Below are positions 2,513-28,039 of a stretch of DNA of 34,237 nt, piece by piece. The position numbers and the translations under genes are program-made. The stretch lies in NCBI GenBank assembly GCA_900095095.1, contig FMBT01000622.1, forward strand, positions 1 through 34,237, written 5' to 3'. The stretch is from Fragilariopsis cylindrus CCMP1102 (taxonomy: Eukaryota > Bacillariophyta > Bacillariophyceae > Bacillariales > Bacillariaceae). Each line of letters begins with the position of its first letter. Position 1 is the first letter of the stretch. Below the pieces are notes generated by a model. That model was not told the DNA's origin. It searched no databases and worked only from the letters and a program-made list of their open reading frames with translations.

Positions 2513-2750
2513 TGTTGTCTAAGCTTATCTTGGTATCACTCCATACAATATAAAACAAAGTCCTCGTACTAATAAATTCTTACATGCCGTTAAAATATAT
2601 TAAGTCGTGCCGGTCAATCCAACGGAATGTTCTCTTTCGCCATGATTTCAATTTTTTTTCGTTTCTACGCGCGTGGTACAGTACTAAATAATCTCCAAAT
2701 CAAACAAAAAAAACTAAATAATCTCCATAGTTTAAATCAATTTGGGCTAG

Positions 2751-3070
2751 TTATATCATATATATAGTTGCCACCATCACTTGTTTTTGCCTAAATAAAT
2801 AGTCAGCAATATCAAATACATGCATTAGATAACACCCAAAGTAACTGTACAAAAGTAATATGTGTGCACTTGTTGTTATATGTGTATCATTCTGCCAATA
2901 ATGGTCTAGGAGGGTAGGTAGGCATTATGTGGGATTTATATCATATATATAGTTGCTACCATCACTTTTTCCCCCTAAAGAAATAGTCAGCAACATTTCA
3001 CACATGCATAAGATAATAACAAGAGCCGCTGTAGGAAAAGTAATACGATATGTGCACTTATTGTTCTACA
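2751..3070. repeat. Diverged tandem repeat, about 185-bp period
   Basis: Two copies begin at 2751 and 2936 with TTATATCATATATATAGTTG. They share further blocks in the same order: ACCATCACTT, AATAGTCAGCAA, ACATGCAT, AAAAGTAATA and GTGCACTT-TTGTT. A weaker relative may lie near 3190-3240. The surrounding stretch 2513-3514 holds no gene I can support. It is the spacer between the membrane-protein gene start and the retroelement, and the repeats may be remnants of an older element. Confidence 0.6.
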
Positions 3071-3537
3071 TGGATCTGCTTATTTAAATGCAAAAACAAC
3101 AACATTATGTATCTCATATTCTATATTACAACCAACATTGTTAGTGTTTGTGATATTGAGCTGATGCATTGAAACACCAACCAACCATCTCCATACTACC
3201 TTTGTTAAAATCAATTAATACAGCTTATATTTGTTACTGTCACTTCTATATATTAAAATAAGAAATAATAAACACAACATCCCACACTACGCAGTAAGAT
3301 TATAGCCCAAACACACAGCTCTTCATTATTTTGATTTGCACATACCAGCAGGTAAATTAGAACATAGAATTGATTTGCTGTCCTGACTAGGACATATTAC
3401 TTGTGAATGGAAGGTATCATCATCCCAACCCACAATTATTTTGGATGTAATTGCAGCATACCCCTGTTTTCAAAAATATCCTATATATAAAAAGCAATCA
3501 AGGACCATACTTAAAATAGTCACTGTTGGCTGAAAAT

Positions 3538-3554
3538 TGCTCCCACACAAAGTT
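3538..3554 (+). repeat. 17-bp direct repeat, 5' copy
   Basis: TGCTCCCACACAAAGTT occurs here, just before the retroelement's main open frame, and again at 6669-6685, about 100 bp past its last stop. It could be a short terminal sequence of the element. Confidence 0.5.
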
Positions 3555-3571
3555 CAGAAGCAGCATCGACA

Positions 3572-5521
3572 TTGGATAGAACACAACTGAAACACTACAC
3601 TGATGCAGAAATCAACCAACTTCACTACTGCAAGAGCTACCTACAGGTAAAAAGAATTTCCGATTTGTGCACAGCTGATGGAGCTTTTATACTACCATCC
3701 ATAGCAAAAGGTGAAAGAAGCATCAGACAATGTACATCCAAACTGAATGAAATAACACAAGAAAGACCTGGAGATCAATCGTGGACAGTGTGGAGAAAAT
3801 TCCTTAAGACAATATGCAAACCCAGTTCGAACCAAGACCCAAGATTTGATCCAAGATCCGATCCACGTTTCAAGGAACCAAGTACCAATCCACGATCCAA
3901 GGAACCAAGCTCAGATCCAAGAGCTGGACCTAGGTTCAACGAACCAAGTACCAAGTCACGACTCAACCTATACACTGAGCCAAGAACTGAACCAACCACA
4001 ATGAAAAATAGTGATACCCTCATCAACCATGAGGGTCTACAGCAGCGAAAAGAAGAGATAGACAAAGTCAGTATTGGGACGTACATACTTAAATATTGGA
4101 TTGGAGTACCGTACAGAGGAATTGTAATGAACAATACAGGCAAATACTACAAAATACTATACGAAGATCATGACGAAGAAGAACTTAACCATACAGAGGT
4201 AATACAATATGAGAAAAAGTACAGAGGAGAGGGAAGAATGACAAAAGAAGTAGGAAGACGAATGAGACTTACAAAACCGTTAGGGGACTGGATCGTACAA
4301 GCTAATGATTCTGAGAGGCTGTGGCCATTCTATTATTCAGAAGAAACAGACGTACTATACAGGAGTTACAGAAAAGAATGGCACACCAATGGAGAATACT
4401 ACTATGACTGCCATAAACTAGCAGACAACGATACATACAACTACAAACCCGATGGAAATGTGGAACGACTACCGAATGATGCAACACCAACAGACGTGAT
4501 GGACACCGAAGACGGATGGAGAATATCAGAACACCACTCAATAAGACAACAAGAAGAACAATGCGTGGAGAGCAAAACGATAATACAATATCTACAGTCA
4601 CAAGAAGAACATGTGTCACAGTACTATGCAGAAATAAACTTTCTAACAACGCCATTTGAAGTTTACGAACTCATCAAATCACCAAGAAAATACAACATAG
4701 CAACAGATGGAGGAGCAATACCACTCAAAGGATCTCTGGGATTTGTTGTTGCCAATGAAGATGGAACAGTACTATTATCTTGCTACGGACAACCATCAGG
4801 AAATGACCCACTATCATTCAGATCTGAAATATGTGCACTACTAGCAGCAGCAAAGCTACTACAATTGATAACAGAATACTATGACAACCAAATACAATGT
4901 GAAGAGCCGGCAAGAGGAAAAATACAGGTATACACAGACAGCTTAAGTATGATAAAGAAATTAGGAGCATATGATGAATATCCAACAGCTCACCTGAAGA
5001 CAGTACTTAACTCAGAGTGGGATGTCCTTTCAGCATTAAGTAGAACCTTGAAGAAATTCAGAACTTACCCAAAACTAAGCTGGGTAAAAAGTCACCAAGA
5101 TGATATGGTTTTTGATGAGAAAACAATGCCACTGGATGCCTATCTGAACTCAGAAGCAGATGAATTAGCAACGATAGGACTGAAGCGACTACAAGAAAAA
5201 CCTATTGTGCCAATGGATCCAAACACATGCATACAGTTCCATATCGAAGGAAGAACAATAACAAGAAACTTCAAAAACACAGTAAGAGAAATAATACAAC
5301 TGAAACCACTCCGAAAATTCTACTGTGACAGATTCAAGTGGAGTGACAATATATTTGATCTAATTGATTGGGACATCTTTCGACCAGTATATAAGAAACA
5401 TTTAGCTACTAAAGGAATACAGTGGATACACAAATTCTGCATAAGAAGCTGCCAACAGGAGAAAGAGTCCATCAACGAGACCATTTCCATGACAAAGATG
5501 TGCATCATGTTTGGAGCATGA
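3572..5521 (+). CDS. Retroelement protein: Tudor-like patch and RNase H domain, frame-broken at the 3' end
   Basis: The frame is open from 3515; 3572 is a TTG, not an ATG, so the true start is unknown. Residues below count from 3572. About 90-140 is a short tandem repeat built on DPR-(F/S)-(K/N)EPS. About 174-214 contains PYRGIV...YYKILYEDHDEEEL, a Tudor/Agenet-like pattern. About 375-535 is type 1 RNase H: ATDGGA (D379), SEICALLAA (E419), VYTDSLS (D456), a distal His in VKSHQDD (H508) and NSEADELA (D530), so the catalytic set looks complete. RNase H degrades RNA in RNA-DNA hybrids during reverse transcription. Past WIHKFCIR the frame is lost: LPTGERVHQRDHFHDK lies in the next frame (5449-5496). 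The sequence ends at a TGA that is probably an artefact of the two breaks. Confidence 0.7.
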   Translation: MDRTQLKHYTDAEINQLHYCKSYLQVKRISDLCTADGAFILPSIAKGERSIRQCTSKLNEITQERPGDQSWTVWRKFLKTICKPSSNQDPRFDPRSDPRFKEPSTNPRSKEPSSDPRAGPRFNEPSTKSRLNLYTEPRTEPTTMKNSDTLINHEGLQQRKEEIDKVSIGTYILKYWIGVPYRGIVMNNTGKYYKILYEDHDEEELNHTEVIQYEKKYRGEGRMTKEVGRRMRLTKPLGDWIVQANDSERLWPFYYSEETDVLYRSYRKEWHTNGEYYYDCHKLADNDTYNYKPDGNVERLPNDATPTDVMDTEDGWRISEHHSIRQQEEQCVESKTIIQYLQSQEEHVSQYYAEINFLTTPFEVYELIKSPRKYNIATDGGAIPLKGSLGFVVANEDGTVLLSCYGQPSGNDPLSFRSEICALLAAAKLLQLITEYYDNQIQCEEPARGKIQVYTDSLSMIKKLGAYDEYPTAHLKTVLNSEWDVLSALSRTLKKFRTYPKLSWVKSHQDDMVFDEKTMPLDAYLNSEADELATIGLKRLQEKPIVPMDPNTCIQFHIEGRTITRNFKNTVREIIQLKPLRKFYCDRFKWSDNIFDLIDWDIFRPVYKKHLATKGIQWIHKFCIRSCQQEKESINETISMTKMCIMFGA

Positions 5522-6568
5522 AGATGATAATCACATACTTCAATGTTCTAAAAGAAGAAGTGTAAGAAAGAAGGTTGTCAATCAAATAAATGTACTGCGC
5601 AAAACAGTGGACAAGAACTTGTGCGACATACTACAGGAAGGATTAATGGCTACTTCAACAGGGACTGCATGTCCAACACCATGTTTAGAATAAGAGGAGG
5701 AAAAGGCATGGAAAGGTACAAAAATTTAATAGATGAACAAACAGTAATAGGATGGGACAATCTGTTAAGAGGAAAATTTTCAAAGGAATGGAGAATACAA
5801 CAGAAAGCATATAAAACAAGACTAAGATTAGTAGACCCAATTGAGTATGATAAGATAAAAAGAGCTCAGAAACGAAACCAAGAGCAACAAAATGAAAATG
5901 AACCAAACAACAACAAGAAAACAACCAAAAGCAAAAACAAAACAGAAGAATTTCACGGTTTCTTTCAGTCAATAGTACCAATAATATTAGAAATGTGGAC
6001 AGATAGGTGCATTGACAGAAATACACCAGTATTAGGGGGCAGAATAGTAGCAGAATATGAATCTCTATGCAAGAACGTAACCCACCTGTATACACTGAGA
6101 GAAATGGTACTGCCAGAAGATGAAATTAAGATATATGATGAAACACTACTATCAAAACTTGCAGACACAAACCAACAATTGAAAAAGTGGATCAACAGAT
6201 GGAGACCAGTAATAGATCATAGCATGAAAAGAGTGAAAGAATTAGCACAAGAAAACAGCAAACCGATATGGCAACACTTCACTGCAAACAAACCAGCAAA
6301 GACCAAGGTATCACGGAAACTATTGAAGCAATTGAAACCAAAGAAATATTCTAACAACCCATTGACGAACGTGTACACCAGATTAAAGAAGAAGCGATCA
6401 TCAAGTAGAGTACTTCCAGTAATAAAGAAAATCAAACATACAGTTAATCATTTGATATCAACATTGTACAACAAATTGGGAAAGAAGAGATCAACTAGCA
6501 GAGAGCAAACAGCATTGGAGGTGGGAAAGCAGATAATTGATGACAGATTTGGAGATGAACCTAAGTAA
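5503..6568 (+). CDS. Retroelement protein 3' part: zinc motif and basic tail
   Basis: The zinc motif reads CASCLEHEDDNHILQC from 5499 in one frame, a C-x2-C...H-x4-C pattern as found after RNase H in LINE-like proteins. That frame runs to TAG 5691-5693. A break near 5645 moves the reading into the frame that continues to TAA 6566-6568. There the conserved stretch VIGWDNLLRGKFSKEW is followed by a Lys/Asn/Gln-rich linker, a segment with the motif WTDRCIDRNTPV, and a basic Lys/Arg/Ser C-terminus with repeated LKKKRSSSR / LGKKRSTSR blocks. Its function is unknown; a nucleic-acid-binding tail is inferred from charge. Together with the preceding frame it makes one ancestral protein. Confidence 0.6.
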
Positions 6569-6668
6569 TAAATAAATGTAGAATAAATTTGGCGGGTAGA
6601 TTGTTGACTTTCTGTCTTTCTAAGACCTTAAGGAGCAAAGCTGCAGCTATTAAATAATAAGTTATATA

Positions 6669-6685
6669 TGCTCCCACACAAAGTT
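6669..6685 (+). repeat. 17-bp direct repeat, 3' copy
   Basis: Identical to 3538-3554. It lies about 100 bp after the last retroelement stop codon. Apart from this copy, 6569-6878 contains no supported gene. Confidence 0.5.
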
Positions 6686-6878
6686 TGATAGGTATTTCCA
6701 TACAAATACTCATAAAATAAATGAACCCACCTAAAGCCGAAACCATTAGGGCCTTTGGTTCACATGCTACACCTCGTGCAAAATTATTTTAAGCGGATTT
6801 TAGCTAAAATAGGGTATTTATTGGTTTTTGGTCCTTGACAAAGACAGTAAACCCCTGTTCAACAGTATTTCCCTGTAG

Positions 6879-7538
6879 ACATATAAATTGATTCCAGGTC
6901 AAGTTGTGTCATTGACACTGAATTTGTATGAACAATTATTAGTGAAATCAAAACAGCACCAGTTTTTTGTTCAAGTGAATAGTCAAGTTTGTGGAATACA
7001 ACGACGTCAACAACAAAAACGAAAAGAACAACAACAACAACAACAACAGGAACAGGAACAAAATAATAGTAATAATATTTGTGATAACATTTATAGTAAT
7101 ATATGGAAATTATTTGCAGAAAAATATCCAAATCAGTTATTTGCTTTATTGGATTGTGATGATACATATGAACAATATAATACTATTGAACTTTGTAGAA
7201 CAATATATTCAGATGACTTTAATAATGATAGACTTACAATGTTAGAAGAACGCCTTCATGTCGATTTTGTAACAATAACTCATAAAAATCATGGTACTCA
7301 TCAACGTCAATACGATAGTAATGATAGTAGTAATAATATTACGAGTAATGACGTTAATCGATTGATTGAATTTTATAGTGGTAAACTTAATGCACAAAGT
7401 TTAATACAATACTTTCAAGATAAAATCAACAGCATTGGTAATGGCAATGGCATTGGCAGTAACAATGACAGCGGCAATGATAATGATAATAAGATGAAGA
7501 TGAATTATAATGACAACCAACATAGTCAAGAACTATAA
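6879..7538 (+). CDS. Unrecognised protein, 3' exon only
   Basis: No ATG opens this frame. It begins right after a good acceptor (TTTCCCTGTAG, AG at 6877-6878) and a TAG lies just upstream in frame, so this is probably a last exon. The first part is folded-looking (PGQVVSLTLNLYEQLL, then FFVQVNSQVCG). A Gln/Lys/Arg tract and Asn runs follow. A second ordered part contains NIWKLFAEKYPNQLFALL and LTMLEERLHVDFVTIT, and the protein ends in a Gly/Asn/Asp-rich tail at TAA 7536-7538. I do not recognise the family. The upstream exon was not found; the retroelement lies immediately 5', so the gene may have been split by that insertion. Confidence 0.4.
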   Translation, partial: TYKLIPGQVVSLTLNLYEQLLVKSKQHQFFVQVNSQVCGIQRRQQQKRKEQQQQQQQEQEQNNSNNICDNIYSNIWKLFAEKYPNQLFALLDCDDTYEQYNTIELCRTIYSDDFNNDRLTMLEERLHVDFVTITHKNHGTHQRQYDSNDSSNNITSNDVNRLIEFYSGKLNAQSLIQYFQDKINSIGNGNGIGSNNDSGNDNDNKMKMNYNDNQHSQEL

Positions 7539-8510: not shown

Positions 8511-8654
8511 CAGAATAGAATAGAATAGAGTAGAGTAGAGTAGAGTAGAGTAGAGTAGAGTAGAGTAGAGTAGAGTAGAGTAGAGTAGAGAAGAGATTCG
8601 AGAGCAACGGCACCAAAGTAAGCAAACTGTAGAGAGAGAGAGAGAGAGAGAGAG
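8511..8654. repeat. TAGAG pentanucleotide and GA dinucleotide microsatellites
   Basis: An imperfect then perfect TAGAG array fills about 8511-8590. A GA run covers about 8631-8654. Both lie in the putative promoter/5' UTR upstream of the ATG at 8789. The stretch 8352-8788 otherwise shows no gene. Confidence 0.85.
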
Positions 8655-8788
8655 TGTGTGTATCAGTCAAGTGCTGTATTCGATTGGTATCACATTGGTA
8701 TCACCTAACTAAGCTAGTCCCTCCTTATTACGAGTCGAGTCGAGTCGTCAAAGAACGGATAACTCAAATCAAAACGCCAACACCAACG

Positions 8789-11700
8789 ATGACAACGCCA
8801 AAGCCAAAAATGAACAATAACTCAGATCATGATGATGATATTGAATATAATAAAAATAGTATACGAAATAATAGTAATAATAGTAAGTTTTGGAATGATA
8901 TCAATAATAAAATAAAGTCAAATATATACAAACATAAAGTTCAAGTTGAAGGTAAAGATGCTGTTCCTCAAGTTGATGTTGATAATTCTGTTGGAAATGA
9001 TTCTAAAGTAAAAAATAATAATAATAATACTGTAAAAGAAGCTACTAATAATAATTGTCATTGGATATTCCGTTCACGTACATCCCATATCTTAAATACA
9101 AATGGACATTATGATTGGAAAAGAGAATTACATTGTTTTCAAGGTCAATCATTACCAGATGCAGTATACAATAATAATACAGTTGAAATTATTTTTCTTT
9201 TACAAAATTCAAATTCAAATTTAGACAATTGCAATGAGAAGAACGCAGCAGCATTACGAATACGGTTTAGTGCATTGGAGGGATTACGGAATTGGATGTC
9301 CTATGATTGTCAACCAATATTAACATATCATGCCATTGATTCAAATTTACATTGGAAACAAATGAATGAAATGAAACAGACGCCGACTGCTCAAAGTCAA
9401 AAAGGAGACTCAAATAATTCAAATCCAAATCCAAGTAGTAGTAGTATTATAAATGAAATAAGTTATGATTATACATACACGACACCCTATAAGGGTGGCA
9501 CAGATTGTATTTATATCTATCCTGACGATGAAAACAATGACAATGACAATGACGATACTGAAAATAATGACGATACTATATATAATTATTTAAAACCTGA
9601 TTCAAGTTCATTCATTGCAAAACATGATGCAGAAGAAAATAATGATACTATCAAAAAGAACAGTAATAACAAAAGTGGCAACAGCAACAGCAACGTACGT
9701 CGTGTCAAGTTACGTAAACCAATCTGTAAATGTAAAGGTGATGGTGGACGTGCACCATTCGTTTCTACGTCTACTACTAAATCTAGATCTAGATCTAAGA
9801 ACGACATAGAAGAAGTGGGAAGGGAAGTTGAAAATCGTCTTTCTTCCTCTCAAAGCAAAAGTAAAAAAGGAAGGCGATCACAACCACAACAACAGTCACA
9901 AAAACAACTACCTGAATGGAAGAAAACGATTTCCTACAAGGTGGATATAGAAGGATTATTACAACGCAATCATACTACTATAAAATTTAGAGATGATATA
10001 ACATTATGGGAAGATGATTTACATGATAATGGTACAGCATGGTTAAAAGTACGAACCTTTGTTTGTAAGGAAGGATGGGCATGTCTACTTAGAAATTATA
10101 TCCGTGTGGATAATGTACTTGTAAGAGTCATTGATACAAGATATATACATATATTTGGTAGTCCGAATGTCTACCGAGAATATTCCTATAAAGAAGGTAC
10201 ATGGAAGGATTTAATTAAAAAAATCAATACTAATCCAAAGTATCCAACAACTCAAACAATAGAATCAAAATCATCAATTAGTTTAGAATCAATTAATGAT
10301 TCAATTGCAGCAAAATACCTTCCATTGAAGGAACCACCAATCACAGAATATTTATCACTACTATTAAGCGATAATGAAGATGACGATGAAATTAAATCGG
10401 TAGCATTGCCATTGCCATCGCCATTTCAAGAAGACGACGAAGAAGTACAACAACAAAAGGAAACAACCACAGCTGCTTCTGCTGCTGTTACCAGTGGTGA
10501 TTCAGAAAGTACAAGTCTTATCATAATTAATGATGTATCAATAGAGGATGCTATTCCTGTCGTACCTAATTTACTACAAGAATTTGGAATCGCATTTCTT
10601 ACTAAGAAATCAAATGGAAGTATCTTAGAAGCCATTTCAACAACAACTTCTACAACAACAGCATCAGCTTTATCTACAACTGATGTATCATCATCATCGT
10701 ATATTTCATCAACTACTATTTGGTCAAAACCCTACAATAGTCATAAAAATGGTACAACAAAATCAATTTTATCAATTCAAATATCATCTAGTCCATATGA
10801 TGGTGGTAGAATAGCTATTGGTGATGATTATGGTTATGTTGAAACATGGCGTTTGTTAACAGGTGAATTATTATATAAATTTGATATTACTACATTTGAA
10901 ATAAGAAACAAATATCGTAATAAATCAAGTACAAGACTATGGACTGATCATTTGATATTTAATGATAATGGATCATATATTGGTGCATCTGCTGGACGGA
11001 ATACAGTATTGATTAAAGTTGATGACAACAATAACAATAACTCATCATCTTCATCATCATCATCAAATGATGAAGAGAATTGTTGTATTGATGGACAGAT
11101 AGTATCATCATTAGAATCAACATCCGGGACTGTAACAGGACTTGCATTTCGGAATAATGAAAATACTAATAATGATGTTTTATTAGCTGTTGCATCGTAT
11201 GGAGAAATTCAGTGGCTCGCAACATCGACTGCTACACCAACACCAACACCAACACCATTGAAACGTAACGGTGCTGCAATTGAATGTATTGATATATCAT
11301 CAAATGGTCAAAAAATCGCTGTTGGATTTTTAGATAAAACATTACGCGTTTATGATTATAGTCCTACAACAACTACCGACCCAGAAAAAGATGTAGTATC
11401 AAACAAATACAAGGCAATTGATTGGGTGGGATTTAATTCTGCAGTAAAATCAGTACAATTTAGTACCTCATTGAACTCATCGCCATATTGGTTAGCTGCT
11501 ATGGGGGGTAATACTATATTAGTTCTTCGTGATGATCTCAATACACGAAAAGAAGCACCAATTATTTGTAGAACTCAAGGGAAAACAGAACGCGATGGAT
11601 GTGATGGTACATGTCATCGATTTATAAACATACAATGGTCAACATCAACATCAACGTTGACGACGAGTGGTTTTTGTCAAGAAATGTCTACCTTAGCTGC

Positions 11701-13580
11701 ATTAGATGCGAATAATGGTTCAGTTCATATATTCCATTTCATCATCGATAATAACAATACTACTGGTAACACTTCAAGAATGATGACGACGTCGAATCAT
11801 AATCAAATAGAAGATTCATGGCCACGTCGAGCGTTACCAGTTTATACGATTCAATCATCATTTTTGAACCCATCCAAATCGATTGCAACTACGGTATTTG
11901 CATTTTTTCCTTCATCATTAACAACGACACTTACTAATACTAATACTTCTCAGCAACAAGAACAAGAACGGGCACCATTACTAGAGCAATCGTTGTCTGC
12001 AACGAAAAAGGAAGTTCAACAGCAACAACGACAAAATGCGTTTAAATTTATGATCCTCGATACCGCCACCACTACTGATGATGATCATCGAGATCGACAT
12101 CAACATGAATCAGAAGTTAGTAGTAATCGAAATATGATGAATAAAAAAAGTCGAGACTTTTCGTTGCTGTTTCTATCGTGGAAAGCAACCAATCGTAGTG
12201 GTAAAAGAAAACTTACGTCCTGCCAAAAATTATGTTTCCTTGGTTTTGTATTTTCAATTACCGCTTATTACATTACGTCATCGCCGACGATGACGAAGAA
12301 GGAAAAAACTATGCTCACAACATCAATAAGTATGGAATCAAATTATGGAAGCTGGGTTGTATCTAAGGCTGATAACAATGATGAGAACGATACTATTATT
12401 ACACATCCAGAATATGACGAAGAAGAGGCAAGAAAATATTTATTTTATTCCAAAGTAGCTTTTTGTACTGAACAAAGCATTTTGTCATGGTCATGTGGAT
12501 ACATGTGTAATAAAGTCCCAATAATCAGCGATGATGATGATGCACCAGATAATAACAGTAACAATAATAATAAAGTACGGTACATACCAGAAGGAGAATC
12601 GTATGGTGTGCAAGGATATGTTGCACAGATTCCTAATGATAACAATAACAATAATTCTGATGTTGATGGCGATAATGATAATGATGACTTATCAGATCAT
12701 GATGGTACTAACAATAACAAATGTATTGTATCCTTTCGTGGATCATTAAATACGAAGAATTGGTATGCTGATTTTCTTTTTATGCTTAAACCATGGCCGA
12801 CAGGTAATATGATTATGAATATGAATCTAACTGACGGCGAAGAAAACGAAGTTGATTGGTGTCGAGGTTGTAAAGCACATTATGGATTTGCTTCTGCGTA
12901 CGATGAACTTCGTAATGAAGTCCATGATGCTATACAAGATTTGAACTGTACCTCATTGGTTGTAAGCGGGCATTCTCTCGGCGGTGCAATTGGTAAGTGC
13001 ATATACATGCAGTGCACATTGGGTTTTACCTTACGTTGGCTCATTATCTCATACTGCTGGTTCTACTCTTTTCTTTCCTCCTTTTTTCTCTACTACCGTA
13101 TCCACTCCAATTTTTTCAATTTCTAATTAATTAGCAACAATTGCATCATTCGATTTACGAGCTGTGATGGGATATCATGTTGAATCGACGTGGACATATG
13201 GTAAACCTCGATTGGGGAATGTAGAATTTGCTAATAGTTTTGTTGCCGCTGCTACAAAACAAGGTGTATCATCACCGATTTGGCGGATTGTACATTTTCA
13301 CGATCCAGTTCCACGTGCACCACCAAATCTGCCATTCCATCCTATTGTACATGCACCATTAGAAATTTATTACACCAACAGACAATCATCCGAATATATA
13401 GTCTGTCCTCAACAAAATGATGGTACAAAAGAAAATCAATCATCGTCGTGCATGGGAAGTTGGCCATTATATCTTTCATTGAATATTGATCATATCAATT
13501 ATCTAAATGAATCCTTTGCGTTTAAGAACTTTCCTGCAGACTGTAAGGCTATGAATAATACCGCACCTCCTCGGTTATAA
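8789..13580 (+). CDS. TIP41-like / WD40 / membrane-anchored class 3 lipase fusion protein
   Basis: Exon 1 is 8789-12992 and exon 2 is 13135-13580, giving about 1549 residues. The frame is open from 8654, but 8789 is the first ATG. Residues 91-480 match TIP41, a regulator of PP2A-type phosphatases in TOR signalling: YDYTYTTPYKGG, LWEDDLHDNG, NYIRVDNVLVRVIDTRY, then REYSYKEGTW, with a low-complexity insert. About 640-990 shows WD40-type blades (GRIAIGDDYGYVETW, GQKIAVGFLDKTLRVYDY). Residues 1144-1162 form one hydrophobic segment (LCFLGFVFSITAYYIT). From about 1215 it is a Lipase_3 domain: FRGSLNTKNWYADF, GHSLGGAIA with Ser1396, VHFHDPVPRAPP with Asp1458, and DHINYL with His1521 as the likely triad. 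The lipase would hydrolyse acylglycerol or phospholipid esters. The membrane segment may put it across a membrane from the TIP41/WD40 part. No stop separates the parts. TIP41 plus lipase is not an arrangement I know. Confidence 0.8.
12993..13134 (+). other. Intron inside the lipase GHSLGGA motif
   Basis: GTAAGT follows the codons for GGAI plus one G, and the acceptor is AATTAATTAG. Splicing in phase 1 restores GGAIATIASFD, the canonical continuation of the Lipase_3 nucleophile elbow. Read through, the frame gives an unrelated hydrophobic tail stopping at 13126. The 142-bp length fits the other introns here. Confidence 0.85.
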
Positions 13581-14161: not shown

Positions 14162-14885
14162 CTATGTAGCCATAGGTAAGACCACTACATCGTATGCCGT
14201 TCCTGGTTCTACCGCCACCGCCGCTGTTGTATCTTCACGAGAAAAATATCGATAACGAGAACTCTTTAAAGTACTACAAGAACTAGATTAAGATGGTGCC
14301 GCATTACTATGTATGTTAGTACTTTAAGTTGTAGATCGTCCGTTTTTATTCTAAATTCCTTACTCAAATTTACCAGTTTCGATAAACGATTGGCGACTGC
14401 GACGACGAGACTGGGAATCCTCATCATCACCTGCAGCATCCTTGGTAGCAAGACCAAGACCCGACATACGATGAATGTTATCAATTTCAAATAAACTCGA
14501 ACGACGGGCAATATATTTTTCCGGTTTGTTTTCTGCTATCTCCTTTTCTTTTCCAGTTTTTCCAGCCTCGGCGATCATTCCTTCCCCCCATTCCTCGTCA
14601 CGTTTCCTATCGGTATTTACAATTTTTGCAATCATTTCGTCGTACGTTAATTCCGTTCCTGCTCGAGCCTTCAAAGCCAGGACTTTATCATACTGATCCA
14701 GAACCGTACTATCACGTGCCGATACATCCACAGTCACGTATGGTGTTTCTTCTTCTTGAGGTACAGTATAATATTTATTATTGATACCTTCCTGCCAAAT
14801 AGTAACAAATGAATCGAAATCGTTGATACCTGGAATTTTTACTTGTAAAGAACTCTTCCACAGTACTACCCGCACATTTCGCTTT
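14162..14885 (-). CDS. Unrecognised two-exon protein, 5' end lost at the LRR-array junction
   Basis: The main exon is open on the minus strand down to 14364. An 81-bp intron (14363-14283, GTAAGG donor, AATCTAG acceptor) joins in phase 2 to a final exon 14282-14162 ending in TAG. The protein contains KIPGINDFDSFVTIWQEG, YYTVPQEEETPYVTV, an acidic/basic middle (LTYDEMIAKIVNTDRKRDEEW), an Arg/Ser tract, and the tail VEPGTAYDVVVLPMAT. No ATG is visible at the upstream edge (a GTG lies at 14875). Another frame (STVEEFFTSK) could enter at KIPG if one base is missing. I do not recognise the family. The sequence just upstream is LRR-array intron, so either this is the last exon pair of the LRR gene or the array has replaced its own 5' end. 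Confidence 0.45.
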
Positions 14886-14986
14886 GTATTTTGTGGTAAA
14901 ATGGGAGAAGTACAAAAATGGCACTGTGAAAAACAACAGATATAGCAGTAAATGGAAGCAGAATAATACTCAATTCAATTACTTAC

Positions 14987-16602
14987 CCAAATGAAGAGTT
15001 GTAAGTGAGGTCATCAGTCCAGTCTCACTTGGTACTGAAGATATCCAATTGAGGTCATTAATCCAATCTCACTTGGAATTGAACCAGTAAAAGCATTGCC
15101 CCCTAATGCATTTGGTGGTAAAATGTAAAAAGTATAAAAAAAAGCATTGTGAGAAAACAACTGATATAACAGCAAATGGAAGCAGAATAATACTCAATTC
15201 AATTACTTACTCAAATCAAGAAATGTAAGTGAGGTCATCAGTCCAATCTCACTTGGAATGGAACCAGTAAAAGCATTGCCCCCTAATGCATTTGGTGGTA
15301 AAATGTAAAAAGTATCAAAATGAAACTGTAAGCAAACAACAGAAATAACAGTAAATGGAAGCAGAATAATACTCAATTCAATTACTTACACAGATAAAGA
15401 TTTACAAGGGAGGTCATCAATCCAATCTCACTTGGAATGGAACCAGTTAGCTTATTGTCATCTAATGCATTTGGTGGTAAAATGTAAAAAGTATCAAAAT
15501 GCAACTGTAAGCAAACAACAGAAATAACAGTAAATGGAAGCAGAATAATACTCAATTCAATTACTTACACAGATAAAGATTTACAAGGGAGGTCATCAAT
15601 CCAATCTCACTTGGAATGGAACCAGTTAGCTTATTGTTAACTGAATCAAAGATAACATATAAAGCATTGTTATCTAATGCATTTGGTGATGACGTGTGAG
15701 AAGTATAAGAAGGGCATTGTGAGAAAACAGCAGGAATAACAGTACATGGAAGCAAAAAAATACTCAATCCAATTACTTACTCAAATAAAGGTTTGAAAGT
15801 GAGGTCATCAGTCCAATCTCACTTGGAATTGAACCAGTAAAAGCATTGCCCCCTAATGCATTTGGTGGTAAAATGTAAAAAGTATCAAAATGAAACTGTA
15901 AGCAAACAACAGAAATAACAGTAAATGGAAGCAGAATAATACTCAATTCAATTACTTACTCAAATCAAGAAATGTAAGTGAGGTCATCAGTCCAATCTCA
16001 CTTGGAATGGAACCAGTTAGCTTATTGTCATCTAATGCATTTGGTGGTAAAATGTAAAAAGTATCAAAATGCAACTGTAAGCAAACAACAGAAATAACAG
16101 TAAATGGAAGCAGAATAATACTCAATTCAATTACTTACACAGATAAAGATTTACAAGGGAGGTCATCAATCCAATCTCACTTGGAATGGAACCAGTTAGC
16201 TTATTGTTAACTGAATCAAAGATAACATATAAAGCATTGTTATCTAATGCATTTGGTGATGACGTGTGAGAAGTATAAGAAGGGCATTGTGAGAAAACAG
16301 CAGGAATAACAGTACATGGAAGCAAAAAAATACTCAATCCAATTACTTACTCAAATAAAGGTTTGAAAGTGAGGTCATCAGTCCAATCTCACTTGGAATT
16401 GAACCAGTAAAAGCATTGCCCCCTAATGCATTTGGTGGTAAAATGTAAAAAGTATAAAAAAAAGCATTGTGAGAAAACAACTGATATAACAGCAAATGGA
16501 AGCAGAATAATACTCAATTCAATTACTTACTCAAATCAAGATTTACAAGGGAGGTCATCAGTCCAATCTCACTTGGAATGGAACCAGTTAGCTCATCGTT
16601 AA
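14987..16602 (-). repeat. Tandem array of LRR exon-plus-intron units
   Basis: Nine units of about 180 bp, two of them stretched to 212 bp. Each holds a 72-nt exon coding one 24-residue LRR (xxNxxTGSIPSEIGLMTSL plus six residues) and an intron of 107-140 bp. Introns are almost identical: GTAAGTAATTGAATTGAG at the start and CACCAAATGCATTAG at the end. The 212-bp units have a second acceptor, TTTGATTCAG, 33 nt further on. The last unit (15102-14987) is 116 nt and looks like two half-repeats joined by a deletion. Confidence 0.85.
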
Positions 16603-22742: not shown

Positions 22743-24584
22743 TTATTTTTGATCTGGATAAACTTGACGAACGTTAATATTAATTCGATGATCTTTTAAA
22801 TATCTTTTCAAATATTTCTTTTCATCACTATTACTACTATCATTGATATTAATACTGATATTGGTATCCGTATTGTTGTTGTTGTTGTTGTTGTTAAAAC
22901 CATCGTCGTCGTCGTCGTCGTCGTATAGTCGTGATAATTGTTCTAACGTAATGGCATTATCATTTGTATCCCAATTACTATTCCAATTACTATTATTTTT
23001 ATTATTCTCATTATTCTCGTCGTCAGAACCAAAAATTGTATTGTCATATTTAATTATAGCATCATATGGTACAATTCGTGCAACTGCATGATAATTTAAT
23101 CGTGATGGGCCACCCATAATTAATACATCCCCTGGTCGTATTAATATTGCACGAACTGGATGTGGATGTGGAGGATGATTTTCATTGTCTTCATTGTCTT
23201 CTTTTTCATCATTTTCATAGTTGTATTCATCTTTAATTGTATGTCCACCTAAAATAAATATAGCTGGCAATCCTGTGGATATTGATACAATTGGTTTGTC
23301 CATTGCATTTATATGTTCTAAATCATCACGATGACCACCAAAATTTGATTTTTCTGTATAATAATTCACAATTGATGCGGATGGTATAAAACTTATATTA
23401 TTATTTTCATCTGTTGCTGTTGATGGTGTTGCTATTGCTGTTGTTGTTGGTGTTTTTGGTATTTTTGTTAATGAATAGTTATCAATATTATTTTGATTAT
23501 TATATAATAATGATGCTGATGCAAAGTATTTCGATATTTTTGCAACTAATGATGGAATAACTATTAATTTTTGATCCGGATGATATTGTCGTTTATTCCA
23601 ATCATAATGATATCCCATTGTGGACCATGATAATTTGTTAAATCGACGATAGTAATTAGTAGTTGTAGCAGTAGTAGTAGTACCACTAGCAACAACAATA
23701 GGGGTAGCAGTAGTTGTTGGTGTTGTTGCAGTAGTTGCTGTCTTTTTCTTCTTTGAAGGCGGTGGTGATGACGATGATGATGATGAATCAGGTTGTTCTT
23801 GTTCTTGTTTCCATAAATTCCACATAGTTTCACTTATATTAGTATTAGTAGTATCATTAATCCTTTCATTTGGTTTTGGTGGTAATAAATCAATATTAGT
23901 ACGATAAGCATTCGGTGAAGAAGTATTTGGGGATGATGATGATGAAGAAGAATTGGAATTAGAAGAATTTGAAGGAGAAGAGTGTTCACAATATTTTGTA
24001 ACAGCTTCATAGGATAATTGCAATTGAACTTCTTCACTTAATGCATTTGGATATAGGTATACACCAGGATATTCATGAAATCCATAACAACGTGGAGGAG
24101 TTGGAGTAGTTGTATCAGTATCAGTATCCTCAGCTGTAGTACCAGTACTAGTACTAGTACTTCTGTGATGATCAATTAGAAAGACAAGGTCCTTATTGGA
24201 CCGACCGTTGTCACTGGTGTTTTTTGAGGCGCTACCACTGTCACAGTCACCATCACCGCTGTTATCACAGACGTCGTTGTCGTCGTCATACTTCTTCTTT
24301 GTCGAATGCTGCTGCTGCTGCTGCTGCTGTTGATGTTTTCTTCTACTACTTTGTTGAAGATAATGAATCCGTTTCACATCAATAATTGAATAATCTTCAT
24401 CTTCACAACTACCAGATCCTACTACTAAATCATCAATACGATTAGGATCATTTCCACGTCGTTTATGACGAATAAATGCTTTTTTAAATATAGATAATTT
24501 ATTCGTTGTCGTTTTACTACTAGCGTCGTTTTTCTTCGTCTTCGTCTTCGTCTTTGATGCGTTTACATTTTTATTTGTACTCAT
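22743..24584 (-). CDS. ALKBH1: ALKBH1-type 2-oxoglutarate/Fe(II) dioxygenase
   Basis: 613 residues from ATG 24584 (the frame stays open to a TTG at 24650) to the stop at 22743. The AlkB family oxidatively demethylates nucleic acid bases, and ALKBH1 acts on tRNA and DNA. Landmarks: GFHEYPGVYLYPNAL, LSWSTMGYHYDWNKRQY, ASIVNYYTEKSNFGGHRDD with iron ligands H418 and D420, VSISTGLPAIFILGG, IRPGDVLIMGGPSRLNYHAV with the distal His at 499, and NVRQVYP with Arg606 as the likely 2-oxoglutarate anchor. The core is complete, so it is probably active. Low-complexity inserts (Lys-rich N-terminus, poly-Gln, Ser, Thr, Asn/Asp runs) make it much longer than animal ALKBH1 (about 390 residues). No intron is needed. 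Confidence 0.85.
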   Translation of the reverse strand: MSTNKNVNASKTKTKTKKNDASSKTTTNKLSIFKKAFIRHKRRGNDPNRIDDLVVGSGSCEDEDYSIIDVKRIHYLQQSSRRKHQQQQQQQQHSTKKKYDDDNDVCDNSGDGDCDSGSASKNTSDNGRSNKDLVFLIDHHRSTSTSTGTTAEDTDTDTTTPTPPRCYGFHEYPGVYLYPNALSEEVQLQLSYEAVTKYCEHSSPSNSSNSNSSSSSSSPNTSSPNAYRTNIDLLPPKPNERINDTTNTNISETMWNLWKQEQEQPDSSSSSSSPPPSKKKKTATTATTPTTTATPIVVASGTTTTATTTNYYRRFNKLSWSTMGYHYDWNKRQYHPDQKLIVIPSLVAKISKYFASASLLYNNQNNIDNYSLTKIPKTPTTTAIATPSTATDENNNISFIPSASIVNYYTEKSNFGGHRDDLEHINAMDKPIVSISTGLPAIFILGGHTIKDEYNYENDEKEDNEDNENHPPHPHPVRAILIRPGDVLIMGGPSRLNYHAVARIVPYDAIIKYDNTIFGSDDENNENNKNNSNWNSNWDTNDNAITLEQLSRLYDDDDDDDGFNNNNNNNNTDTNISININDSSNSDEKKYLKRYLKDHRININVRQVYPDQK

Positions 24585-26001
24585 TCTCGTCGTTTTGTCG
24601 TTTCTGAAATATTTTTTGTCTCGATCTTCTGATTTCCTGATTCGATCCAAGCAGCGTGAGAGGTGTCGTTGCGTGAATAAACAGCTTGGTCTGTCCTTTC
24701 CGTTATAGAGTGAGTAGGAATGAAATACAGTAAGTTACGCCGATACCGATAAGATGATGATAATACTTGTACCGGTATGATGTTTTGATTGATTATTCGA
24801 AAAATGTTCACAGGAAAAATGGATGTGTGGCCCTGACAAACCACTTTTACCTTACACGTGGCAGGCAGGGTCTGCCCTTGCTATGATTTGTAAATTTCAC
24901 GAATTGAAATAAATACGGTAAGCTAGTCGTAGATTGTATCTCATCTAATTCTCATCCTATCTATAGATAAGAAAGAAGGAAAGAAAATCAATCATAGGCA
25001 AAAATTTTGTGGCCTTGTGTGACAAGACACCTCGCCTTTCTACAGTTGAAAACATCTAAACCAGTCAAGCGTATTTATATATTACCCAATAATAGTACAT
25101 AAAAACACAAGAAATTAACCGCAAATCACGCAAAAAAGAAATAGAATAATTATCTATAATGCGGTGCCATTGGATTTGGATGTCGGATACAAGTGTGGTG
25201 TAATAGACAAATCATATCATACTGCGCAATGACGCTTTTTTATTGTTCCTCGTTGATCAATAAACAAAATCTACCTTATTCTTTCTGTTCCCGTCTGTTT
25301 CAATCCAATCAAATACTGTACGAAATGTGTCAAATTATCACACAAACAAACCATTCTATTCATCAAACGGAAAGTATCGTTCGTGTACCGATTACTCAAT
25401 TTGGTTGGCGATACGATGATAAGGAATATACAATACCATACTTCATGACTCATCTTAATTTTTAGAATACAATCGTTTGGTCAATACAATTCCCTTTTCA
25501 TCCAAAGATAGATCTTGATCTATACTATATCTATCATGACAAATCCGTATAATACAGACGAATATAAGATATAGTAGTGAAGATGTGAAGTATCCCATTT
25601 CTTCCGATTTGTTCGTTATTCACCATCATCGGTCTTGGTACGCTGTTTTGTTACAAAGATGACTCTGCTCGTGTTAAAATTGATTTCATCAATGTACTTG
25701 TACCTGTTATTGCTATTGTTGTTGCTGCTGTTGCCAGAAACGGTTTGAATGACAGAAAGAGATGCTGCCTACTTGATTGGACGACAACAACGACTACGGA
25801 TATCCACGTGATTTTGGGTGTACTATTGTATAATCAAAGCTTTTGTTGTAGCCTACTAAGAACTATGCTATGATATTCAAAAATGTATTGACTTCTTTTT
25901 CTTATAAGATATAAATTAAAATTCTACCCATTGATTGGGACTATATGTAGAACTAAACGACACGTAAGCAACTACTTGCTAAAAGGAAGATACTAAGAAA
26001 C
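24585..26001. other. Intergenic; one weak 78-codon frame
   Basis: Between the starts of the ALKBH1 gene and the end of the MYND gene. An ATG at 25229 (+) opens 78 codons to 25465, ending ITQFGWRYDDKEYTIPYF; it is not recognised and the opposite strand is open too. A frame open 25589-25873 (+) has hydrophobic content (NVLVPVIAIVVAAV) but no start codon. Nothing firmly supported. Confidence 0.4.
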
Positions 26002-26841
26002 TCACAGACCTTTCACGCGTTGGCATAAACGTGCTGCTGCTTGGATCTCTACTTTATTGACACCAGTCTTCTGCATTTCCATAATGCGCAGGCTACGGAT
26101 TGAACACTCATAGCCAAGAGCTGCTGCTTCAAAGAATTTTGCTTTGGCTTCAGTGTGATCACCACGTTTGGTCAAGATAATCGCAAAATTATGGATCGCC
26201 ACGATTTCGCCCTGTGCAATGCTAAGCTCGAAATAACGTCTCGACTCAGTTAGATCAACTTTTACACCATAACTACCTTCGTCATACATAGCGGCAAGAT
26301 TAGAAGATGCGGGACCATTGCCGAGCGTCGAAGCTTGCATGTAGAGGCGACGTGCTTCCACTGGATCAGCTTTCACACCGTCACCTATTCTATAGTGATC
26401 ACCCAGCTGAGAAAGAGCTTGTGCATGTTCGGAATTTTTCTCAATAAGTTTGCGGAGACGTACAACGGTTAACTCGACAGTTTTAGCACCGGGCTCCCGA
26501 CAGAACACACAGCGATCGATCCCAGTATTTGAAATATTTGCACCGTCGCATTTCCAGCAGATTGTATTGCCACAGCAGGAACGCCACGATGAGAGGAGGT
26601 GGTCGGACGGTAATGGTGCCGTACAAACTGCACAATCGTCATATAATTTACTTTTGAGCTCCTCATCATCAGTGACTAACGGAAGTTTCAGTAATCTACG
26701 GTCAATGATATCTTGGTGTACCGGTTTGTGAGCACGCCATTGCGCTCGTTGGCAGACTTTGTCGCAATAGTAAGCATCGTGACAACAGCATCGCATCATG
26801 TTAGTGCTCTCTGCCGTTACTCCACAGTGTGAGCAGCTCAT
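26002..26841 (-). CDS. MYND-type zinc finger / RING-like / Sel1-repeat protein
   Basis: 279 residues, ATG 26841. An N-terminal MYND finger (about 3-42: C3, C6, C18-C20, YYCDKVCQRAQWRAH) has His42 where the last Cys is usual. A RING-like cluster follows: C70-x2-C73, CC89-90, C95-x2-C98, C111-x2-C114. From about 143 there are Sel1-type repeats (YRIGDGVKADPVEARRLYMQ, MYDEGSYGVKVDLTESRRYF), helical hairpins for protein binding. The combination suggests a protein-protein or ubiquitin-related adaptor; the partner is unknown. This family is expanded in diatoms. The gene is intronless and GC-richer than its flanks. Confidence 0.8.
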   Translation of the reverse strand: MSCSHCGVTAESTNMMRCCCHDAYYCDKVCQRAQWRAHKPVHQDIIDRRLLKLPLVTDDEELKSKLYDDCAVCTAPLPSDHLLSSWRSCCGNTICWKCDGANISNTGIDRCVFCREPGAKTVELTVVRLRKLIEKNSEHAQALSQLGDHYRIGDGVKADPVEARRLYMQASTLGNGPASSNLAAMYDEGSYGVKVDLTESRRYFELSIAQGEIVAIHNFAIILTKRGDHTEAKAKFFEAAALGYECSIRSLRIMEMQKTGVNKVEIQAAARLCQRVKGL

Positions 26842-28039
26842 AATCGGAAGCGAGGTAGTGCAGCTAGCTAATGCCGGAGCAGGTTCTTTACTTCTTCCCG
26901 TCAGGCAGAGTTACCAAAACTCGACTGTAAGCATTATTTGTTTTATCTTATGTAACTACTTCAAATAAGTAGTGGCTGTTGTTGTTACATCACATCCTTT
27001 TATTATTATTAAAAGAAAATGTACCGTACGCTAACGCATGTACCAAAGTTTTTCACACAAATTTTGTCGAAGAACAACGATGTCGACTCACTCCGACTCC
27101 GACTCGGAATATAGTAGCATTTGTACTTCTTTCATTTTCTATATATATTTGTGTATTTGTTGTTGTATTTGTATCTGATGACATCCGTCTTCAAAATAAA
27201 ATCAGTCCCACAAGTACGTGACTAAGAATGGCGTTAAACCCTGTTAATGTTCATGTCAATCAACAATATTGCAGACATTTTGAGCTTTAGTGAAAATATA
27301 GAGCGTCAAAATACCATTTTTCCTATTCTTTTATAAACTCAATTATTCTAAAAAAAAAAGCTTTAAAAATGGAATCTCCGTCCGTTAAGCTCTACATTGA
27401 TATATGCCTACAGTAGGCCTGAATCACACGGGTTCAAAAATTCCCTTTTTTTAGCGTACATTCATTTCCAAGTGTGCGGTAAGACTACACCGCAGACTCA
27501 ATGTCTAGAACTAAACTTTCCGGACTTTCTGACATTGTCCAGATTTCGTTGGACATTGGCCTAAAGATTGTCCGTTTGACAAGTGGCCTCGAATATGGTT
27601 GCTACTGATAAGGATGAAAGCATTGTAAAAGATAAGCAGGTAGGAGGTAGGAGGTGTGTCAGCTATTGTACAGTAAGTTACTACATCTATATCTAAATTT
27701 GTTGAAAATTTTCTTGAGAAAGATAGCTTTTTTTTTAAACCCCCAAATCATTGTTTCGTCCTCCTCCAGCCCCCCCCCCTTATTCTACTTGCTCTTCAAC
27801 ACACAAAAGATACCCACACGCGTGGCACACTTGTGCGTGCCTCATATCATATTATTTAAGTACATTTTGTTTTTTCACATCACGACAAGCATCGTATGAT
27901 ACCTTTTTATGATACCTTTCGTCCTTCCACTCAACTCTCCATCTACATATCTCCTTTTCATCCCTCCCACACTCGCAACTATTCTAACTTAAAACCAAAT
28001 TCTTTCAAGAAACGAAACGAAAAAAACGAACCTATCACG
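26842..28039. other. Intergenic between divergent genes
   Basis: Holds the 5' flank of the MYND gene and that of the plastid-type protein at 28040. There is a poly-C run at about 27770-27779 and an oligo-A run near 27350. No gene, tRNA or long repeat recognised; an 80-codon open frame near 26979 is hydrophobic and unsupported. Confidence 0.5.

Follow-up and report, generated by a model that had tools for sequence, protein, structure and literature searches.

Human TIPRL holds the C-terminal tail of PP2A-type phosphatases in a cleft in which residue R200 matters, and its D198N variant was recovered from a binding screen, according to PMC4973239; PMC5741625 places a further contact on the PP2A scaffold, at the regulatory-subunit site. 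A 2022 review (PMC9664231) states that triacylglycerol increases both in Chlamydomonas and in the diatom P. tricornutum when TOR is inhibited chemically, and describes the mechanism as largely unexplored for microalgae. Here we describe a gene of the diatom Fragilariopsis cylindrus CCMP1102 that joins a TIP41/TIPRL domain, a WD40-type propeller and a class 3 lipase in a single reading frame. It lies on the + strand at 8789..13580 of contig FMBT01000622.1 (assembly GCA_900095095.1), of which positions 1 to 34,237 were analysed (the window). A natural fusion of a PP2A/TOR-regulator family with a lipase would be a testable candidate link between TOR and lipids.

The coding frame is open and stop-free from 8633 to 13126. 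Reading from the ATG at 8789 to the stop at 13580 and removing one intron (12993..13134, +) joins the exons in frame and gives 1549 amino acids, which confirms the single TIP41-propeller-lipase frame, open over 4.2 kb and spliced once, of a preliminary description made from this sequence. Exon 1 (8789..12992, +), delimited by the open frame, its translation and a second gene copy, comprises codons 1-1401 plus one base; its coding frame contains no stop, against ~110 expected from its base composition, and its other two frames contain 68 and 207. The 142-bp phase 1 intron (GT...AG) interrupts the lipase directly behind its catalytic serine. Its sites (GTAAGT...TTAG) were picked by eye, and its position is backed by the hidden Markov model of the lipase, whose positions 1-76 match exon 1 and whose positions 77-138 match exon 2; a counterpart is present in the second copy. 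Exon 2 (13135..13580, +) encodes the C-terminal part of the lipase and the stop codon. The start codon is supported by the second copy, where an ATG likewise giving MTT.KP lies 18 bases into the open frame. Donor-like hexamers occur at 8883 (GTAAGT, in the N-terminal tail) and 9695 (GTACGT, in an insert of the TIP41 domain).

The second copy starts at L016:3410 on a 292-kb contig (C367) and is likewise in one frame with the same intron. A 29.8-kb portion of C367 is colinear with window positions 1-26739 apart from gaps, and its five main blocks are 85.7-97.2% identical to the window. Exon 1 is 92.3% identical between the copies and exon 2 98.0%, the latter without indels; the intron carries one single-base indel. 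All 17 indels in exon 1 are multiples of three, compared with 6 of 20 in the 5' flank and 1 of 3 in the 3' flank. The frame is maintained end to end between the two copies, junctions included. The ratios of nonsynonymous to synonymous substitution rates, obtained with a single method and from small counts, were 0.68 for the N-terminal tail, 0.41 for the N-terminal part of TIP41, 0.34 for its insert and 0.11 for its C-terminal part, followed by 0.65 for the linker, 0.42 for the propeller, 0.22 for the propeller-lipase junction (5 and 5 changes), 0.43 for the hydrophobic segment and stalk and 0.18 for the lipase encoded in exon 1. We read the C367 copy as probably the other haplotype, an old duplication being the less likely alternative.

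The TIP41/TIPRL domain (residues 89-527; 9053..10369, +) scores 100.1 bits with the TIP41 profile (PF04176, cut-off 25) and carries both motifs named in the preliminary description, LWEDDLHDNG at residue 406 and RVIDTRY at residue 446. The model of this region predicts a complete TIPRL fold, in which about residues 241-372 (9509-9904, +) form an insert modelled at low confidence. With chain 5d9g taken as offset by 10, a mapping in which 6 of 6 checked letters agree, TIPRL R200 and D198 are conserved as R451 and D449. TPDYFL-stop tails were found at two loci of the same genome, and L051 encodes exons that look phosphatase-like and carry GDIHGQ and GNHE motifs, recognised by eye; by these sequence features, a PP2Ac-like gene ending in TPDYFL is present.

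Behind the TIP41 domain, residues 571-1091 (10499..12061, +) are predicted to form a WD40-type beta-propeller. The WD40 profile remains below its cut-off of 27 in the window protein (21.2 bits) and in the second copy (17.8 bits) and exceeds it in two relatives, P0002 (31.0 bits) and P0003 (36.1 bits), and the modelled region clearly matches propellers. Structure prediction of the TIP41 and propeller blocks, one of the checks proposed at the outset, agrees with these two modules as first described. Some of the best structural matches, among them Tako8 (named eight-bladed) and the eight-bladed propellers TBLR1, Sif2 and ODA16, suggest that there may be eight blades. Before the last propeller strand, ERAPLL fits the di-leucine vacuole signal [D/E]XXXL[L/I] quoted for diatoms in PMC9964374; it was given no weight because a distant relative, P0008, does not carry it.

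The class 3 lipase (residues 1206-1549; 12404..13577, +, split by the intron) exceeds the Lipase_3 (PF01764) cut-off of 22 both in exon 1 (41.3 bits) and in exon 2 (30.5 bits). It contains a GxSxG motif and, as first described, a Ser-Asp-His triad, consisting of Ser1396 (12974..12976, +) in the GHSLGG that starts at residue 1394, Asp1458 (13302..13304, +) in HDPVPR and His1521 (13491..13493, +) in DHINYL. Across 29 aligned relatives the serine is present in all, the aspartate in 27 (two gapped) and the histidine in 26 (three gapped).

Comparison of window residues 88-900 with 5.8 billion proteins (7980 candidates scored) returned at least seven proteins; among the matches listed are six TIP41-propeller proteins of 818-1032 amino acids (P0002-P0007) and P0008. 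P0002-P0006 stop shortly after the propeller and contain neither a hydrophobic segment nor a lipase, and P0007 stops inside the propeller and may be truncated. P0008 (1061 amino acids) encodes the C-terminal half of TIP41, the propeller, a hydrophobic segment and the start of the lipase in one frame, with 58% identity to the window protein in the TIP41 half, 49% in the propeller and 64% in the lipase part (~50% overall). When long proteins were searched with residues 1140-1402 (2936 candidates), P0008 alone was recovered. The fusion thus recurs in the second copy and, within the extent of its record, in P0008, and the presence of the same joint in this distant relative marks it as real. The architecture is real and recurrent and places known domain families in a new order. 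As a refinement of the preliminary description, the TIP41-propeller joint is wider than the joint with the lipase, occurring in P0002-P0006 and in a lipase-free paralogue of the same genome. Among the matches listed from an open library of 5.39 million papers, in which subscription papers are mostly absent, none appeared from its title and the opening of its abstract to describe either fusion.

The lipase piece recovered 31 short proteins (389 candidates). Three are fragments (P0009, at 97% identity, P0010 and P0039), the fusion status of P0009 and P0010 lying outside their records, and one, P0031, is unfused and has a different N-terminus, as read by eye. By eye, P0031 also shows a signal-peptide-like start and lysine/proline-rich repeats; it may be secreted or wall-bound, and its tree branch is long. 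The other 27 are lipase-only records (51-62% identity), most of them on contigs of 1-3 kb with the upstream sequence beyond view. In 22 of these, a Met start is followed by a hydrophobic peak (mean Kyte-Doolittle hydropathy 1.40-2.63) that begins at residue 9-57, ahead of the lipase; for the remaining five (P0011, P0014, P0017, P0025 and P0032), the record opens within or beyond this segment. P0026 carries MMETSP/EukProt labels and the transcriptome label type:complete, which shows that the lipase is transcribed separately somewhere. When viral and prokaryote contigs were scanned with the alignment, 27 and 38 pattern matches, respectively, were obtained, with no confirmed relative.

In the tree of the TIP41-propeller part (10 rows), P0008 clusters with the window protein and the second copy (97/99) and P0002-P0006 stand apart (90/93); P0007 and the paralogue on contig C40 are long-branched. 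This tree favours one fusion event. Since unfused TIP41-propeller proteins end after the propeller and most lipase-only records (22 of 27) start with a Met of their own, the gene resembles an end-to-end union of two complete genes. In an alignment of the junction that is weak and therefore suggestive at most, the joint falls between the point where unfused TIP41-propeller proteins stop and the basic stretch plus hydrophobic segment found in lipase-only proteins. The simplest account would be that a TIP41-propeller gene, itself already a fusion, was joined to a signal-anchored lipase gene, and that this probably predates the divergence of this diatom from the lineage of P0008; fission of an older fused gene would be a less simple history. 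This order of events is our reconstruction from the sequences.

Across the 67.9-Mb assembly, PF04176 gave three matches (4 candidates scored), namely the window gene, the C367 copy and the C40 paralogue (L019:3904-6642). The paralogue is a 912-residue frame with TIP41 and propeller, ending after the latter with neither hydrophobic segment nor lipase, at 27% identity; its TIP41 profile score is 41.5 bits and it has Lys at the R200 position. Hence no stand-alone TIP41 was found in the assembly by this search, which a TIP41 gene split into small exons could escape. PF01764 gave at least 50 matches (56 candidates), at 43 loci besides the window and C367, and none of these loci exceeded 32% identity to the window lipase over at least 60 columns. 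As far as the searches and the assembly reach, this lipase type and the main TIP41 both appear to come from the fused gene alone. Silicon transporter matches of up to 757 bits in the same assembly support its diatom origin.

The topology of the protein can be approached from the junction (12062..12226, +), which contains a basic stretch just ahead of the hydrophobic segment at residues 1148-1166 (12230..12286, +), a putative type II signal anchor. Net charge is +8 in the 30 residues before this segment and +1 in the 30 after it. Downstream lie eight N-glycosylation sequons and ten lipase cysteines that are kept in every aligned relative having the column, a conservation that fits an oxidising environment, whether lumenal or extracellular. 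Together, cysteines, sequons and charge pattern favour an N-in, C-out orientation. The gene probably encodes a type II membrane protein whose phosphatase-regulator part would be cytosolic and whose lipase would be lumenal.

We propose, with a probability of roughly 0.65, that one gene encodes a single-pass type II fusion of 1549 amino acids, with cytosolic TIP41 and propeller and a lumenal lipase, which arose by end-to-end joining and ties a phosphatase regulator to the membrane that carries the lipase. By homology, the TIP41 part would bind the TPDYFL tail of PP2A-type catalytic subunits and keep them inactive, and the propeller would recruit partners. The cysteine-rich lipase would hydrolyse acyl lipids in the endoplasmic reticulum, vacuole or extracellular space. 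Most probably, the regulator would be pinned at the membrane with the lipase on its lumenal side, its amount and place tied to those of the lipase. Given the contacts of TIPRL with tail and scaffold, a membrane-fixed TIP41-propeller could keep PP2A-type phosphatases in an inactive state at one specific membrane. A mutual influence of lipase and regulator is what we infer from the fusion itself. Such a fusion could tie growth signalling to fat breakdown.

Several observations weigh against this proposal. The hydrophobic segment of the preliminary description is present as a peak, but a modest one: its mean of 1.32 hardly exceeds stretches within the folded lipase (1.31) and propeller (1.21) and lies below the range of the 22 Met-started lipase-only records; values taken by hand are ~1.67 in the second copy and ~1.87 in P0008. 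P0008 starts inside TIP41 and stops after GHSLG, near the position of the window's intron, where its gene probably has an intron too; as its record is partial at both ends, no second complete fusion was observed outside this genome. Four further TIPRL positions with a link to phosphatase binding are altered in the window protein (I136 to V, T138 to I, M196 to V and F180 to A). In PMC4973239, human M196V showed a deficiency when assayed by two-hybrid and F180A combined with I136T lost binding to truncated PP2Ac, and every mutant tested retained binding to full-length PP2Ac. P0002-P0007 carry the same four alterations, which therefore mark the group and not the fusion. The lipase tree (34 rows) groups the window protein, the second copy, P0009, P0010, P0008, P0031 and P0039 (100/100), and within this group P0008 joins the unfused P0031 and the fragment P0039 (87/89, long branches) instead of the window protein. 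Holding the window protein, the second copy, P0009, P0010 and P0008 together was not rejected (p-value of the approximately unbiased test 0.101), and with P0031 and P0039 removed those five form one group (Shimodaira-Hasegawa-like approximate likelihood ratio 99). The lipase tree is thus compatible with one fusion event and alone no proof of it. Finally, conservation across the junction is low, with the window protein and P0008 identical at 8 of 51 positions.

This last point also suits a passive fusion, in which a single chain would carry two unrelated jobs, or be cleaved later, with no regulatory link. A junction so divergent beside a propeller at 49% and a lipase at 64% identity and the occurrence of each half as a separate protein elsewhere keep this a possibility to be taken seriously, although a doubtful one; a cut after synthesis would be compatible with the sequence. 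Against it, neither the two copies nor P0008 loses the reading frame at the junction, and a working anchor would hold the TIP41 part at the membrane whether or not the two functions are linked. In the opposite direction lies a bolder version of the proposed fusion, which we regard as rather unlikely: the only TIP41-family gene found besides the divergent paralogue would be a transmembrane switch, at once inhibitor and substrate adaptor of PP2A-type phosphatases, whose state or membrane capture of phosphatase would be set together with lumenal lipolysis, for example vacuolar fat degradation under starvation. If true, TOR/PP2A signalling would be linked physically and directly to lipolysis. More improbable still is that the lipase is made also, or only, from its own promoter and start codon inside the long frame. 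The Met-started lipase-only records lend this some support, as Met1116 and Met1117 of the window protein are comparably placed and Met1116 is retained in the second copy; P0008, however, has no Met at that place, and no stop separates the parts in any of the three (the 56 junction codons contain none in frame, against 2 and 10 in the other frames). An intron removing the junction, the concern raised in the preliminary description, is likewise not indicated: of five donor hexamers scanned, the sole match there, GTTAGT (12116), reads GTTAAT in the second copy. An artefact of assembly or frameshift that fused neighbouring genes on this short (34 kb) contig can be rejected, because the same fusion is carried by the second copy on its 292-kb contig and by P0008.

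Around the gene, window 2680-6887 measures ~4.2 kb compared with ~2.2 kb in the C367 copy. Two open reading frames there (3515-5521 and 5552-6568) resemble mobile-element remnants by eye, with an RNase H-like stretch; Pfam gave a sub-threshold Tudor match alone. The neighbouring gene at L016:1167-2213 seems reduced in the window to its 3' part (6879-7538). Shifted matches against C367 at ~14885-16588 point to a likely tandem array with a period of ~179 bp. Further downstream, on the - strand, are a 2-oxoglutarate-Fe(II) oxygenase with long low-complexity inserts (22743-24734; PF13532, 80.8 bits) and a MYND finger plus Sel1 repeat protein (26002-26910), which lies in a stretch whose G+C of 0.461 is above that of its neighbours.

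Among known systems, TIPRL chains in PDB (5d9g, 5w0w, 5w0x) comprise 240-251 amino acids, whereas the TIP41 part here contains a low-complexity insert of ~130 residues and is followed by propeller and lipase. P0002-P0006 share the order of TIP41 and then propeller at 44-47% identity, and the occurrence of this joint in several public proteins suggests an algal TIP41 with its own adaptor domain. On the lipase side, residues 1315-1402 match PDB 1dt3, a fungal lipase, in sequence (E = 8.5e-06); the ten cysteines are conserved among the close relatives of the window lipase. The lipase-only proteins (for example P0012, P0016 and P0026), of 305-449 amino acids and without TIP41 or propeller, have the same cysteines and the same triad as the window protein.

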